Origin: Verrucomicrobiia bacterium
Lineage (GTDB): Bacteria; Verrucomicrobiota; Verrucomicrobiia; Verrucomicrobiales; DEV007
Assembly: GCA_030425385.1 (NCBI GenBank)
Contig: JAUIAH010000030.1
Location: 1-64,000 of the forward strand
DNA length: 64,000 nt
Direction: 5' to 3'
Below are positions 25,746 through 29,669 of this stretch, piece by piece. The notes beneath the pieces are model-generated. The model made no database searches and was not told where the DNA came from. It saw nothing but the letters and a program-made list of their open reading frames with translations. Position numbers and translations under genes: made by a program. Position 1 is the stretch's first letter; each line of letters opens with the position of its first letter.

Positions 25746-26177
25746 GTGAACCTGACGCACCGCACTGATTTCGCGCTTCGGATCCTCATGTATTTGGGGG
25801 CACGAAGGGCTGCTCAACGGCGGACAACGTCGGCGGAGATTGCCGCGGTGTTTGATGTGTCGTTGAATCATTTGGTCAAGGTGGTGAACGAGTTGGCTCG
25901 TCTGGGGTATATTCGCACGGCGCGCGGCCCAGGAGGTGGCGTGCAGCTTGGGCGAACGCCGGAGAGCATTGTTCTGGGTGACTTCATTGAAGACTTTCAG
26001 GGGCCGATGCGACTGCATGAGTGCACCGTGACCGATGGGATCTGTGCGATTGAAACGTTCTGCAAATTGAAGGGCATCTTTGCCCAGGCGGATCGCCTGC
26101 AGAAGGACTTCCTCGATGGTTACACCCTCGCTGACTTCATCCCATCCAAGGCCAAGCTGGCGCGCTTGGCGCCGTGA
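25746..26177 (+). CDS. Rrf2 family regulator, NsrR-like (probable [Fe-S] NO sensor)
   Basis: A 143-residue Rrf2 protein starting at GTG 25746. The N-terminal winged helix (LTHRTDFALRILMYLGA; VSLNHLVKVVNELARLGYI; TARGPGGGVQLGR) is close to NsrR. Three cysteines at 93, 100 and 106 (HECTVTDGICAIETFCKLKG) occupy the place of the NsrR cluster ligands, with a slightly wider first gap. The end (YTLADFI) is also NsrR-like. NsrR derepresses NO-detoxification genes when NO destroys its Fe-S cluster. Downstream on the same strand are a PLP enzyme, a glutathione transferase and a truncated haemoglobin, which fits that role. I found no convincing NsrR box. Confidence 0.85.
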   Translation: MNLTHRTDFALRILMYLGARRAAQRRTTSAEIAAVFDVSLNHLVKVVNELARLGYIRTARGPGGGVQLGRTPESIVLGDFIEDFQGPMRLHECTVTDGICAIETFCKLKGIFAQADRLQKDFLDGYTLADFIPSKAKLARLAP

Positions 26178-26221
26178 TCTCGATCGCGACGAAGCAATCT
26201 ACTAACTGATGCACTCATTTC

Positions 26222-27442
26222 ATGAAGAACCCATCCAGCTCTGAGTCATTGACCGGCATGCAGACGCGGGCCGTGCATGCCGGTGAGATTCCTGATGCGA
26301 CGACTGGCGCGTCCTCGCCCAATCTCATCATGTCGTCGACCTTCCTGGCGGATCCTGAGGCGTCCTTCTCGGCGGAGGGTGATCACCGTGATGATCGCTA
26401 TTTCTACACGCGCTGGGGCAATCCCACAGTCGCTCAGCTCGAACAGAAATTGGCGGCGCTGGAAGAGGGGGAAGCGGCGATGGCTTTCGCTTCCGGCATG
26501 GCGGCAGTGACCGGCCTGTTCTTTCATTGTCTGAGACCCGGTGATCACCTCGTTCTCGGGGATGTGGTCTACGCGGCGGTGTCGGAATTGGCGCAGGAGT
26601 TTCTCCACGAATGGAAGATCGAAGTCACGCGCGTGGATACTTCCGACCCTGACAACGTGGCGTCAGCCATGCGGGACAACACGCGCTTGATCTACATTGA
26701 GACGCCCTGCAATCCGATTCTGCGGCTCACTGATATTCGTGCAATTGCCAGGTTAGCACAGCATGGTGGCGCGCAATTGGCGGTCGATTCGACCTTTGCC
26801 ACGCCCGTGGCCACGCAACCGCTCAATCTAGGTGCCGACTACGTCGTCCATTCTCTCACCAAATACTTGGGCGGCCATGGCGATGCTGTGGGCGGGGCGG
26901 TCATTGGGCGAAATGAGGACATTGTCAGGATGCGGCAGAAGGTGGGCATCCGCATGGGTGGGGTGATCAGTCCGTTCAATGCTTGGCTGATCCTTCGTGG
27001 GCTGGCGACTTTGCCGCTCCGTATGAAGGCGCACGAAGAAGCGGCGATGAAGGTGGCAACGTGGCTGGTGGAGCAGCCAGCGATCACGAAGGTGACCTAC
27101 CCGGGCCTGCCATCACACCCGCAACACGCACTGGCTCGGGAACAAATGAAGAACTTCTCGGGAATCCTAACATTCCAAAGCGACCACCACCGCGCTCTGC
27201 CTTCGCTGTTCGCGCAGCATTTGCAAACGATTCACTACGCCGTGTCGCTGGGGCATCATCGGTCGCTGATCTTCTATATTCCGACCGACGAGATCCTGAA
27301 GACGTCATTCACTCTAACCGAAGAACAGGACGAACACTACCGCGCCTATGCCGGCGAGGCGATCTTCCGCCTCTCGGTGGGAATCGAAGACCCGGAAGAT
27401 CTCTGCAATGACTTGGCGCGGGTCTTTGCGAAATTGAGTTAG
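26222..27442 (+). CDS. Cys/Met metabolism PLP-dependent enzyme (cystathionine gamma-synthase/lyase-like)
   Basis: A 406-residue fold-type-I PLP enzyme. Family landmarks are QTRAVHAG (15-22), YFYTRWGNPTVAQLE with the Tyr/Arg phosphate ligands, MAFASGMAA (about 96-104), YIETPCNP, the Asp of AVDSTFATP and the PLP lysine in VHSLTKYLGGHGDAVGG. Possible reactions are cystathionine gamma-synthase, cystathionine gamma-lyase, methionine gamma-lyase or O-acylhomoserine sulfhydrylase; sequence inspection does not separate these. It lies 44 bases after the NsrR-like gene and 31 before the glutathione transferase, so it is probably in the same operon. Sulfide or thiol production could support Fe-S repair or NO defence; this link is inferred. 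Confidence 0.88.
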   Translation: MKNPSSSESLTGMQTRAVHAGEIPDATTGASSPNLIMSSTFLADPEASFSAEGDHRDDRYFYTRWGNPTVAQLEQKLAALEEGEAAMAFASGMAAVTGLFFHCLRPGDHLVLGDVVYAAVSELAQEFLHEWKIEVTRVDTSDPDNVASAMRDNTRLIYIETPCNPILRLTDIRAIARLAQHGGAQLAVDSTFATPVATQPLNLGADYVVHSLTKYLGGHGDAVGGAVIGRNEDIVRMRQKVGIRMGGVISPFNAWLILRGLATLPLRMKAHEEAAMKVATWLVEQPAITKVTYPGLPSHPQHALAREQMKNFSGILTFQSDHHRALPSLFAQHLQTIHYAVSLGHHRSLIFYIPTDEILKTSFTLTEEQDEHYRAYAGEAIFRLSVGIEDPEDLCNDLARVFAKLS

Positions 27443-27473
27443 TTCACAAACAAACACGCTTTCACACATTGCT

Positions 27474-28133
27474 ATGATTCTACATGAATTCGCCCACAGT
27501 CCCTTCTGCATCCCGGTTCGCCGCATTCTGGAAGCCCATGGTGTCGCCTACGAGCGTGTCGCGGTGCCGAGTTGGGATCGCCGAGCGCTGGCTGAGTTGA
27601 CGCAAGGCGCTTATTACCAGGTGCCGGTGATCGAACACCAGGGCACGATCATTCACGAGACGGCCGAGGATCCGCTGGCAGTGGCGCACTTTCTCGATCG
27701 CGAAGTGGCCAGAGGGGCGCTGTTTCCCGATCACTGTGCGGGGCTGCATGAGATCATTGTGAGGCAAATTGAAGACACGCTGGAGTGGATCGGCTTTCGC
27801 CTCAGTGATCCGACTTACATTGATTCCATCGACGACCTCGGTGAGCGCGTGATGGTCATTCGCCACAAGGAACGCAAGCTGGGCCCGGGCTGTGTCGAGG
27901 AGTGGCGCCGGAATGCGGGAGCACTCGCTCAAGAGTTTGAATCAGCGCTCGCCGACTACGAGACGCGCCTCTCTCATAGTCGCTTTCTCTTTGGCGATGC
28001 TCCGGTGTATGCCGACTATGCTTTGGGAGGGGTGCTAGGCAATGCGCAGCATGGTGGTGCCTATCAGCTGCCGAGTGCGCTCCAGCATCTGAAGCGCTGG
28101 GAATCCGCTCTCGACGTCTACTCAGTGTCGTGA
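27474..28133 (+). CDS. Glutathione S-transferase family protein
   Basis: A 219-residue cytosolic GST. The thioredoxin-fold N-terminal domain (1-78) contains the probable active-site SPFC (about 9-12), YYQVPVIEHQG with the conserved cis-Pro, and HETAED where the Glu/Ser pair would bind glutathione. The all-alpha C-terminal domain carries FLFGDAPVYADYALGG, the usual N-capping segment. The stop overlaps the GTG start of the haemoglobin gene (GTGA), so they are coupled. In this cluster it could handle S-nitroso or glutathionyl adducts; the substrate is not evident. Confidence 0.88.
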   Translation: MILHEFAHSPFCIPVRRILEAHGVAYERVAVPSWDRRALAELTQGAYYQVPVIEHQGTIIHETAEDPLAVAHFLDREVARGALFPDHCAGLHEIIVRQIEDTLEWIGFRLSDPTYIDSIDDLGERVMVIRHKERKLGPGCVEEWRRNAGALAQEFESALADYETRLSHSRFLFGDAPVYADYALGGVLGNAQHGGAYQLPSALQHLKRWESALDVYSVS

Positions 28134-28843
28134 CTGCCCTGCCGACCACACGCTTGGATCGCTCGGCTGGCGATTGGCCTACGCTGGAGGATTGGATAGG
28201 AGCCCGTGTCATCGAGATTGGGGTGACCGATCCCAAGTCGGATCTTTGCCTAACCCTACAACTGTCGATTTCGGAATCATGTGGCCGACTGGAGATCCCT
28301 GCGCCGTGGGTCTTCAACTCGTGCCTCACGACGATCGATGTCGAGACCAGTGGGGATGTGAAGGCAGACGATTTCATCGGCTTGGAAGGCGCGCAGTTGA
28401 CGGCCGTGGAAAGCAGTTCGCGCGGAATGGATTGCCAGTTCGGTTCGATCACGATCAGTGTGAGACTGAGCGATCTGAGCTGTCGCGACGATGTCGAACT
28501 GCTGGTGAATCACTTTTACGAGTCGGTGCAAGCGGACGCCGTTCTCGGGCCGGTGTTCAACGAAGTCGCGCAGATTGATTGGTCGTCGCACCTGCCGCGG
28601 ATGGTGGATTTCTGGGACACCGTGATGTTTCGCTCAGGTGCGTATCGAGGGAATCCGCTCAGCGCGCATGCGAAGTTGCTTCCTCACGTGGAGATGAGCC
28701 AGGCGCTCTTCGATCGCTGGCTAACACTGTTCCGAAGGGCAGTGCATCATCTCTTTGCTGGTGAGAACGCGGGACACATCGTGCGCTGTGCTGAGGACAT
28801 GGCCAATGTCATCCACGACAAGCTTGCGCATCTTCCGCGCTGA
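28130..28843 (+). CDS. Group III truncated haemoglobin with extra N-terminal domain
   Basis: A 237-residue protein. Residues about 113-237 form a group III truncated globin: VELLVNHFYESVQADAVLGP, FWDTVMFRSGAYRGNPLSAH (the His is the expected proximal haem ligand) and MSQALFDRWLTLFRRAVHHL. The N-terminal 110 residues (LEDWIGARVIEIGVTDPKSD through EIPAPWVFNS to SITISVRLSD) are not globin. They look like a small beta-rich domain of the L.G..V..I....L.L type found in short bacterial proteins of unknown function. The GTG start overlaps the GST stop. Truncated globins of this group bind O2/NO and can detoxify NO, which agrees with the NsrR-like regulator at the head of the cluster. Confidence 0.85.
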   Translation: MTALPTTRLDRSAGDWPTLEDWIGARVIEIGVTDPKSDLCLTLQLSISESCGRLEIPAPWVFNSCLTTIDVETSGDVKADDFIGLEGAQLTAVESSSRGMDCQFGSITISVRLSDLSCRDDVELLVNHFYESVQADAVLGPVFNEVAQIDWSSHLPRMVDFWDTVMFRSGAYRGNPLSAHAKLLPHVEMSQALFDRWLTLFRRAVHHLFAGENAGHIVRCAEDMANVIHDKLAHLPR

Positions 28844-28898
28844 ACCATTGCCGTTGACCCGGCCGCCACTGGGGGTAGGGTGGGGCCTGCAAACGGAA

Positions 28899-28943
28899 GC
28901 GTGGACGACCTCGCCTCTCCATCATCATTCAAGGACGACCTTG
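28899..28943 (+). ncRNA. Guanidine-II (mini-ykkC) riboswitch
   Basis: Two small hairpins with ACGA loops lie in tandem. P1 is GCGTGG-ACGA-CCTCGC (28899-28914, one T-T mismatch). P2 is CAAGG-ACGA-CCTTG (28930-28943, perfect). The linker is 15 bases. Paired stem-loops with ACGR loops closed by GG/CC are the definition of the guanidine-II class. The next gene, starting 18 bases downstream, is a Gdx/SugE-type SMR exporter, the standard target. Guanidinium is expected to turn on translation. A covariance-model search would confirm it. Confidence 0.87.
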
Positions 28944-28961
28944 GCCTAACATCCTGTTTCC

Positions 28962-29273
28962 ATGCCTTGGATTCTCCTATTGATCGCCGCGCTTTTCGAA
29001 ATTGCCTGGGCCACTGGCCTGAAGTTTTCCGAAGGTTTCACCCGGCTTTGGCCGACCATTGGCACGCTCGTGGCCTTAGTCGCGAGCCTCGCATGCCTCG
29101 GACTCGCCGTGCGATCCATTCCCATTGGCACCGCCTACGCGATCTGGACAGGCATTGGCGCCGCGGGCACGGTGATCATCGGGTTGCTCTATTTCAATGA
29201 GCCCATGAGTGCCGCACGGCTCGTCTCTGTCGGCTTCATCCTGATCGGGATCATTGGATTGAAGCTTTGTTAG
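28962..29273 (+). CDS. gdx: SMR family guanidinium exporter (Gdx/SugE)
   Basis: A 103-residue protein with four transmembrane helices and the Gdx/SugE signatures: essential Glu in LFEIAWATGLKFSEGF, GTAYAIWTGIGAAGTVIIG, and the end GFILIGIIGLKL, very close to E. coli SugE. Gdx proteins exchange guanidinium for protons as antiparallel dimers in the inner membrane. The guanidine-II riboswitch immediately upstream supports the Gdx rather than the Qac subtype. It is transcribed in the direction of the haemoglobin cluster but separated by 118 bases carrying the riboswitch, so it is probably a separate unit. Confidence 0.95.
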   Translation: MPWILLLIAALFEIAWATGLKFSEGFTRLWPTIGTLVALVASLACLGLAVRSIPIGTAYAIWTGIGAAGTVIIGLLYFNEPMSAARLVSVGFILIGIIGLKLC

Positions 29274-29306
29274 GATGCGGATGCCCCGTTCTGGAAATGT
29301 CTCTAG

Positions 29307-29669
29307 TCAGAGCTTCTCTCGCTTGGTTAGGGCAGCTTGAATCGTTGCCTCATTCCGTGTGCCCCACTCGCAGAGTGGTTGCAAAGATTTCGCCAATCCT
29401 TTGCCATAAGCACTCAGCGAATACTCCACTCTGGGTGGGATCTCTTTGAAGTCCTTTCGAATCACCACCCCGTCGGATTCCAAGTCTCGGAGCTGCTGCG
29501 TCAACATTTTATGGGTGACCCCACGGATCGATCGATGCAGTTCTCCGTAGCGCATGGTGTTGTGATATAAGAAGAAGAGGATCAACGGCTTCCACTTTCC
29601 GGATACAATCCTCAAGGCGGCATCGAGGCCACAGATAAAGCTCGACTCAGTGGTGTTTCTTCGGGCCAT
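29307..29669 (-). CDS. HxlR family transcriptional regulator
   Basis: A 120-residue winged-helix protein. The HxlR pattern is clear: a single early Cys (FICGLDAALRIVSGKWKPLI), LHRSIRGVTHKMLTQQLRDL, DGVVIRKDFKEIPPRVEYSL and YGKGLAKSLQPLCEWG. Many HxlR proteins sense electrophiles, aldehydes or hypochlorite through the conserved N-terminal Cys. It is divergent from an SDR gene and probably regulates it from the shared 110-base region, which holds ATACTT repeats. Confidence 0.92.
   Translation of the reverse strand: MARRNTTESSFICGLDAALRIVSGKWKPLILFFLYHNTMRYGELHRSIRGVTHKMLTQQLRDLESDGVVIRKDFKEIPPRVEYSLSAYGKGLAKSLQPLCEWGTRNEATIQAALTKREKL

Follow-up and report, generated by a model that had tools for sequence, protein, structure and literature searches.

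A guanidine-II riboswitch before a verrucomicrobial gdx-type exporter gene that may control translation without a Shine-Dalgarno sequence

The window, a 64,000-nucleotide stretch of DNA from a Verrucomicrobiia bacterium, carries an exporter gene of the SMR family that is preceded by two short hairpins with ACGA loops. The features of this locus all lie on the forward (+) strand.

28854-28881, +: promoter-like pair TTGACC-N16-TAGGGT, with a transcription start inferred some 7 bases downstream
28897-28943, +: guanidine-II riboswitch aptamer, RF01068 (cmscan, 39 bits)
28899-28914, +: hairpin P1, GCGTGG-ACGA-CCTCGC, with the ACGA loop at 28905-28908 and a U-U mismatch at 28902/28911 (sequence, cmscan)
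28915-28929, +: linker between P1 and P2, 15 bases (sequence)
28930-28943, +: hairpin P2, CAAGG-ACGA-CCTTG, with the ACGA loop at 28935-28938 and five perfect pairs (sequence, cmscan)
28944-28961, +: spacer between P2 and the ATG, 18 bases, with no Shine-Dalgarno motif (duplex energy with CCUCCUU, +1.9 kcal/mol)
28962-29273, +: gdx-type SMR gene, 103 amino acids, ATG at 28962 (PF00893, 107.1 bits)
28964-28994, +: start of the open reading frame (ORF), codons 1-11, proposed anti-aptamer (folding, synonymous recoding)

RNAs of the guanidine-II class bind two guanidinium ions cooperatively, with a kissing interaction between their loops. A sequence-only reading of this DNA had placed such a riboswitch before a gdx-type exporter gene, an identification borne out by an RF01068 score above the cut-off and by covariation in related leaders (see below). 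The RF01068 model matches positions 28897-28943 over its full length with 39 bits (gathering cut-off 32; cmscan E = 0.00029 for the window against all families) and has this one match only in the 8.0 Mb genome (E = 8.5e-6). A search of the genome for a second guanidine riboswitch, of the guanidine-I class, gives no match. The window has a single instance of the tandem pattern GGACGRCC-N12-40-GGACGRCC, compared with a mean of 0.01 in shuffled sequences (1 of 100 shuffles has one). The hairpins, the 15-base linker, the 18-base spacer and the AAGGA run inside P2 (28931-28935, 26 bases before the ATG) are all present as that reading described them. P1 is indeed a hairpin, but not the perfect six-pair stem that was drawn: three base pairs are followed by a mismatch of T28902 with T28911, flagged by cmscan, and then by two more pairs. 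Folded alone, the aptamer adopts just the two hairpins P1 and P2, at -9.7 kcal/mol. This stability is not unusual relative to shuffles (z -0.97), and the whole leader folded from 28844 is no more stable than shuffles (z +1.54).

Look-alike hairpins could in principle arise ahead of an SMR gene by chance, the RF01068 model being short (48 positions) and some weak matches in the phylum (L017, L019-L022) not being located before SMR genes. For this locus, however, the probability of such a coincidence is negligible. A match of 39 bits, unique in 8 Mb, stands immediately ahead of the genome's single SMR gene, and the same arrangement in relatives already refutes a chance origin, which the cmscan score, the genome uniqueness and the shuffled-pattern counts rule out. 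With its score above gathering, its tandem ACGR-loop hairpins carrying GG/CC beside the loop and its association with an exporter gene, the element almost certainly belongs to the guanidine-II class. Taken alone, this membership makes it an ordinary representative of a known riboswitch class.

The 16S of the genome shares 85% identity with that of a named Verrucomicrobiaceae genome, compared with 76% for Victivallis and 74% for Stenotrophomonas, over alignments that extend a little past the gene; together with the named relatives of the protein, this points to Verrucomicrobiota as the phylum. The earlier reading considered the occurrence of the class in this lineage to be of interest, which holds only in part, as RF01068 recurs across Verrucomicrobiota. 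At E <= 0.001 it is found in 21 of 387 genomes of a phylum sample (18 above the cut-off), 24 of 386 of an order sample (22 above) and 5 of 74 of a family sample (4 above, with one family leader scoring just 29.7 bits); the three samples overlap. There are 38 distinct loci, 33 of them directly before an SMR gene. These 33 form the leader set, from which L017 and L019-L022 are left out as not preceding such a gene. Among verrucomicrobial loci above the cut-off, an SMR gene follows directly in 32 of 33, the exception being L017 (33.6 bits). One SMR gene of the set (L009) is recognised by its start only, tblastn having given no match. Where tblastn aligned the protein, in 20 phylum leaders, the aptamer and the ATG are 14-31 bases apart.

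All 29 distinct verrucomicrobial aptamers have ACGA or ACGG loops, and the loop-adjacent GC is kept too. Covariation is seen in these 29 aptamers at P1 pairs 3, 4 and 6 (counted from the loop) and at P2 pair 4, and is equalled in 0 of 500 column shuffles, although the test leans in that the model itself supplied the leaders, which are also related by descent. The Infernal search with the Rfam model that had been suggested as a check has thus found its covariance-model match, and the ACGR loops are kept in homologous leaders. In the family, an SMR homologue is present in 8 of 74 genomes and 2 of 18 genera. The aptamer stands in front of the homologue in five of these eight genomes and is missing from the other three. 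Such a patchy gene with its accompanying aptamer suggests, from its distribution, that gene and switch may be gained or lost as one unit.

The ORF at 28962-29273 scores 107.1 bits against PF00893 (cut-off 23.7) and has the only PF00893 match in the genome, making it the sole SMR gene. The closest solved structure is 6wk5, which we take to be Gdx-Clo. Like the Gdx/SugE exporters Gdx-Clo and E. coli Gdx (b4148), the protein has all five key residues in alignment (E13, W16, S42, Y59 and W62), and it is 50% identical to the E. coli protein. It differs from them in scoring 120.4 bits with the NCBI SugE model NF008512, under the curated/equivalog cut-off of 126, and its transport activity is predicted. 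The label 'Gdx-type' was chosen because this cut-off is narrowly missed. According to the available text of PMC7695847, which is also the source of the residue roles, W16 is kept in Gdx and is Gly or Ala instead in Qac proteins. The PF00893 match and Trp16, together with E13, S42, Y59 and W62, mark the protein by sequence as a Gdx-type SMR exporter.

Guanidinium had been named as the substrate 'with unusual certainty'. The riboswitch and W16 agree on this substrate, but the missed SugE cut-off tempers the certainty. Among 80 named protein relatives, 42 have an upstream guanidine riboswitch at gathering level (21 class I, 19 class II and 2 class III), a pattern that supports guanidinium as the probable substrate of this branch. 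The eight named verrucomicrobial SMR loci among the 80 all lack a guanidine riboswitch upstream at gathering level, and none reaches the RF01068 cut-off or even E <= 0.5. One of the genomes behind these eight aptamer-less loci, Opitutaceae bacterium UBA6669, has an aptamer before another SMR-type gene (L136, 1501-1545), also with no Shine-Dalgarno motif. A search of viral contigs for relatives of the exporter found none.

The promoter-like pair at 28854-28881 has counterparts elsewhere in the order. The pattern TTGA[CA]-N16-18-TANNNT, picked after inspecting the leaders, immediately precedes P1 in 7 of the 17 non-redundant order leaders (shuffle mean 0.05, maximum 1). A stricter sigma-70 scan of 28780-29420 finds no promoter. 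If the pair is real, the transcript would start a few bases before P1, leaving the aptamer, the spacer and the ORF as the only possible expression platform.

A Shine-Dalgarno (SD) motif was defined here as AGGA, GGAG, GAGG or AAGG at -20 to -4, outside P2. The spacer at 28944-28961 contains none, and its best pairing with CCUCCUU has an energy of +1.9 kcal/mol. The claim that no good SD sequence lies between P2 and the ATG is therefore upheld, and it extends to 22 of 23 order leaders, including that of the window. An SD motif is located between P2 and the ATG in only 1 of the 23 order leaders, compared with 7 of 10 from other Verrucomicrobiota and 24 of 24 from outside the phylum (rank test of order against outside leaders, p = 1e-8, kinship uncorrected). 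The outside set consists of 19 leaders at or above gathering, all SD-bearing, and five below it that were added by eye (L038, L073, L076, L077 and L084); L088, L089, L093, L100 and L102 show similar hairpins but were left out.

The genome as a whole follows the same habit. Among 204 of its long ATG ORFs, drawn from own-genome loci L119-L132 and the window, 18.6% have an SD motif compared with 20.6% and 13.2% at control positions, whereas the identical procedure gives 51.7% against 13.8% in E. coli (n = 29). The 16S tail of this genome nevertheless ends in CCUCC. In the accessible text of PMC10783764, Akkermansia is likewise SD-scarce though CCUCC is conserved, and the SD scarcity of the host is in this sense already known. 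The expression platform is very probably SD-free. As an absence this is well supported, while the mechanism that would operate in its place is a prediction.

Compared with other guanidine-II riboswitches (mini-ykkC, RF01068), such as those of E. coli gdx/sugE and Gloeobacter violaceus, the element has the same two ACGR hairpins, GG/CC by the loops, short linker and SMR gene directly downstream. It differs in that the spacer after P2, where the published SD-release platform has its SD sequence, lacks one, and in its P1 U-U mismatch and verrucomicrobial host. Because the transcript carries no SD sequence and the genome shows no SD enrichment, SD release cannot be the mode of switching and the published model cannot apply as it stands.

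We lean towards a riboswitch that turns on translation of the guanidinium exporter without an SD sequence and uses early codons as the partner of its off-state, a prediction that is modestly supported. In the absence of ligand, the first gdx codons would pair with arms of P1 and P2, leaving the initiation region folded. When guanidine accumulates, P1 and P2 would each take up one guanidinium and their loops would kiss, as expected from the class. Locking of the two hairpins would free the early codons, and the unstructured start region would then permit SD-independent initiation, so that translation of the exporter is turned on. As far as the available text of Scharff et al. (PMC3121790) goes, missing local structure suffices for SD-independent initiation, and this reading of the ORF start agrees with that work and with the accessible part of PMC6847099. 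SD-independent initiation in Bacteroidota, Akkermansia and further SD-scarce bacteria, as presented in the available portions of these two papers and PMC10783764, has the same retained CCUCC, lack of SD enrichment and unstructured start as the proposed signal. The difference is that an RNA binding a metabolite would determine the structure in the present case.

Folding of 28889-29006 without ligand gives the predicted off-state. Two stretches of codons 1-11 are engaged in it: 28984-28994 captures the P1 5' arm (28897-28908), and 28964-28978 captures both P2 arms (28932-28945). Forcing P1 and P2 to form costs 9.6 kcal/mol and raises the predicted unpaired fraction from 0.48 to 0.62 at -20 to +20 and from 0.39 to 0.61 at +4 to +15. 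The AUG changes little, being largely unpaired without and with forcing (0.62 and 0.68). These and the following values are thermodynamic predictions that include neither ligand nor kissing energy, and all evidence for switching is of this kind.

The same comparison was extended to other leaders by exchanging or shuffling their downstream sequences. The 23 order leaders were reduced to 17 by removing the near-duplicates L011, L107, L109, L114, L115 and L117, and the long-spacer leaders L069 and L074 were left out of the outside set in the shuffle and recoding tests. Several related tests were made, so the p-like fractions are uncorrected, and the leaders share descent. In the 17 order leaders, the aptamer meets stronger competition from the native downstream sequence than from swapped (0.003) or shuffled (0/80) sequences, and the opening of the start region upon forcing exceeds that of swaps (0.019) and shuffles (0/80). 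The outside SD-bearing leaders show the same effects relative to shuffles (0/80), which serves as a positive control, but not relative to swaps among themselves (0.231 and 0.172). No significant effect appears in either test for the other ten verrucomicrobial leaders. Taken singly, the leader of the window has an accessibility gain that is unexceptional, matched by 50 of 80 shuffles and 7 of 16 swaps. The gain is absent in 7 of the 23 order leaders, and in L002, L011 and L014 the aptamer is predicted to be stable without ligand, at a cost of 0.1-0.4 kcal/mol. That the conserved device is simply the P2 5' arm binding the start region was rejected, as matched pairs do no better than swapped ones (0.316). 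Pairing of P1 and the linker with the start region does beat swaps (0.009).

Synonymous recoding bears on whether the codons themselves were chosen for this competition. Codons 2-20 were replaced synonymously in 100 recodings, and competition with the aptamer was compared. In the order leaders, 1 of 100 recodings competes as strongly and 4 of 100 give as large an accessibility gain. The strongest result for any individual leader is that of the window (0 of 100 for competition, 4 of 100 for the gain). The corresponding counts are 41 and 11 of 100 for the outside SD-bearing leaders and 8 and 56 of 100 for the other Verrucomicrobiota, and ranks of individual leaders spread from 0 to 98 of 100. 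The window leader stands out only in the free-energy competition and in this synonymous test. From an effect this modest and uneven, uncorrected for kinship, chances look about even that SD-less leaders have placed an anti-aptamer in the ORF start. A broader version is more tentative: in SD-scarce Verrucomicrobiota the guanidine-II platform may possibly have moved from the leader into the first ten or so gdx codons, whose synonymous choices would constitute the anti-aptamer, with the ligand switching SD-independent initiation through start-region structure alone.

Other mechanisms could operate with the same aptamer. In the available text of PMC7544219, PMC5486947 and PMC12186494, the class is a translational on-switch that exposes an SD sequence. 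A canonical switch of this type, relying on AAGGA inside P2 or on some other weak purine stretch, might be imagined here, with AAGGA present at 28931-28935 and CCUCC retained in the 16S tail. However, AAGGA is paired in ligand-bound P2, so guanidine binding would hide rather than expose it. This pairing and its 26-base distance from the ATG make it an unlikely initiation signal. As the spacer lacks an SD motif, like those of 21 of the 22 other order leaders, and the genome lacks SD enrichment, canonical SD exposure is very improbable.

The aptamer might instead control mRNA stability or transcription, through attenuation or access of RNase. Guanidine-III, according to the accessible portion of PMC12186494, also protects its own mRNA, and with a short leader the hairpins near the 5' end could do the same. 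Against this, 28780-29420 contains no terminator-like site, which led to attenuation being rejected, and the short distance from aptamer to ATG, here and in the 20 aligned phylum leaders, is what initiation control predicts. Control of stability or transcription is thus unlikely, if less so than SD exposure. Between these two in probability, and also doubtful, is the idea that P1 and P2 are a constitutively stable spacer or a relic aptamer, with gdx expressed without switching. The predicted ligand-free stability of P1 and P2 in several leaders would fit such a role, as would the family leader at 29.7 bits. Invariant ACGR loops, covarying stems, SMR genes following 32 of 33 matches, and competition between downstream sequence and aptamer above shuffles all argue instead for a working switch.

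Translational riboswitches are usually explained by the hiding or exposing of an SD sequence, and here a known aptamer lies in its usual place in an SD-poor lineage. The leader of the window therefore offers a natural and very small test of metabolite control of SD-independent initiation through start-region structure, and of whether an expression platform can consist of codons. The locus also brings guanidine handling into the biology of Verrucomicrobiota. In the open-licence literature on guanidine-II and other riboswitches in Verrucomicrobia and Akkermansia, and on SD-free riboswitch control, an SD-free guanidine-II switch was not found. The nearest SD-free design in that literature, going by the available text, is a synthetic haloarchaeal riboswitch (PMC8241225). 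The 1,977 bacterial guanidine-II examples given in the accessible part of a 2025 paper (PMC12335538) may include verrucomicrobial ones.

Several further observations concern neighbouring or related sequences. At locus L108, the exporter match falls in two pieces around residue 45, reflecting a frameshift, a small insertion or a draft sequencing error. In genome G385, repeated GGGACGACC hairpins with ACGA loops are found at L022 127-173, L019 590-638 and L019 near 1600, in several copies with no adjoining SMR gene. They may represent a multi-hairpin array or else a dispersed palindromic repeat that mimics the model for guanidine-II. Upstream of the window's riboswitch, 25746-28843 encodes an Rrf2 regulator that most resembles NsrR (105.3 bits, under the cut-off of 182), together with a Cys/Met PLP enzyme, a GST-like protein and a 237-amino-acid protein with no Pfam match. 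This last protein resembles, by eye, what we take to be truncated haemoglobins, and the upstream genes are possibly a nitric-oxide or redox cluster.
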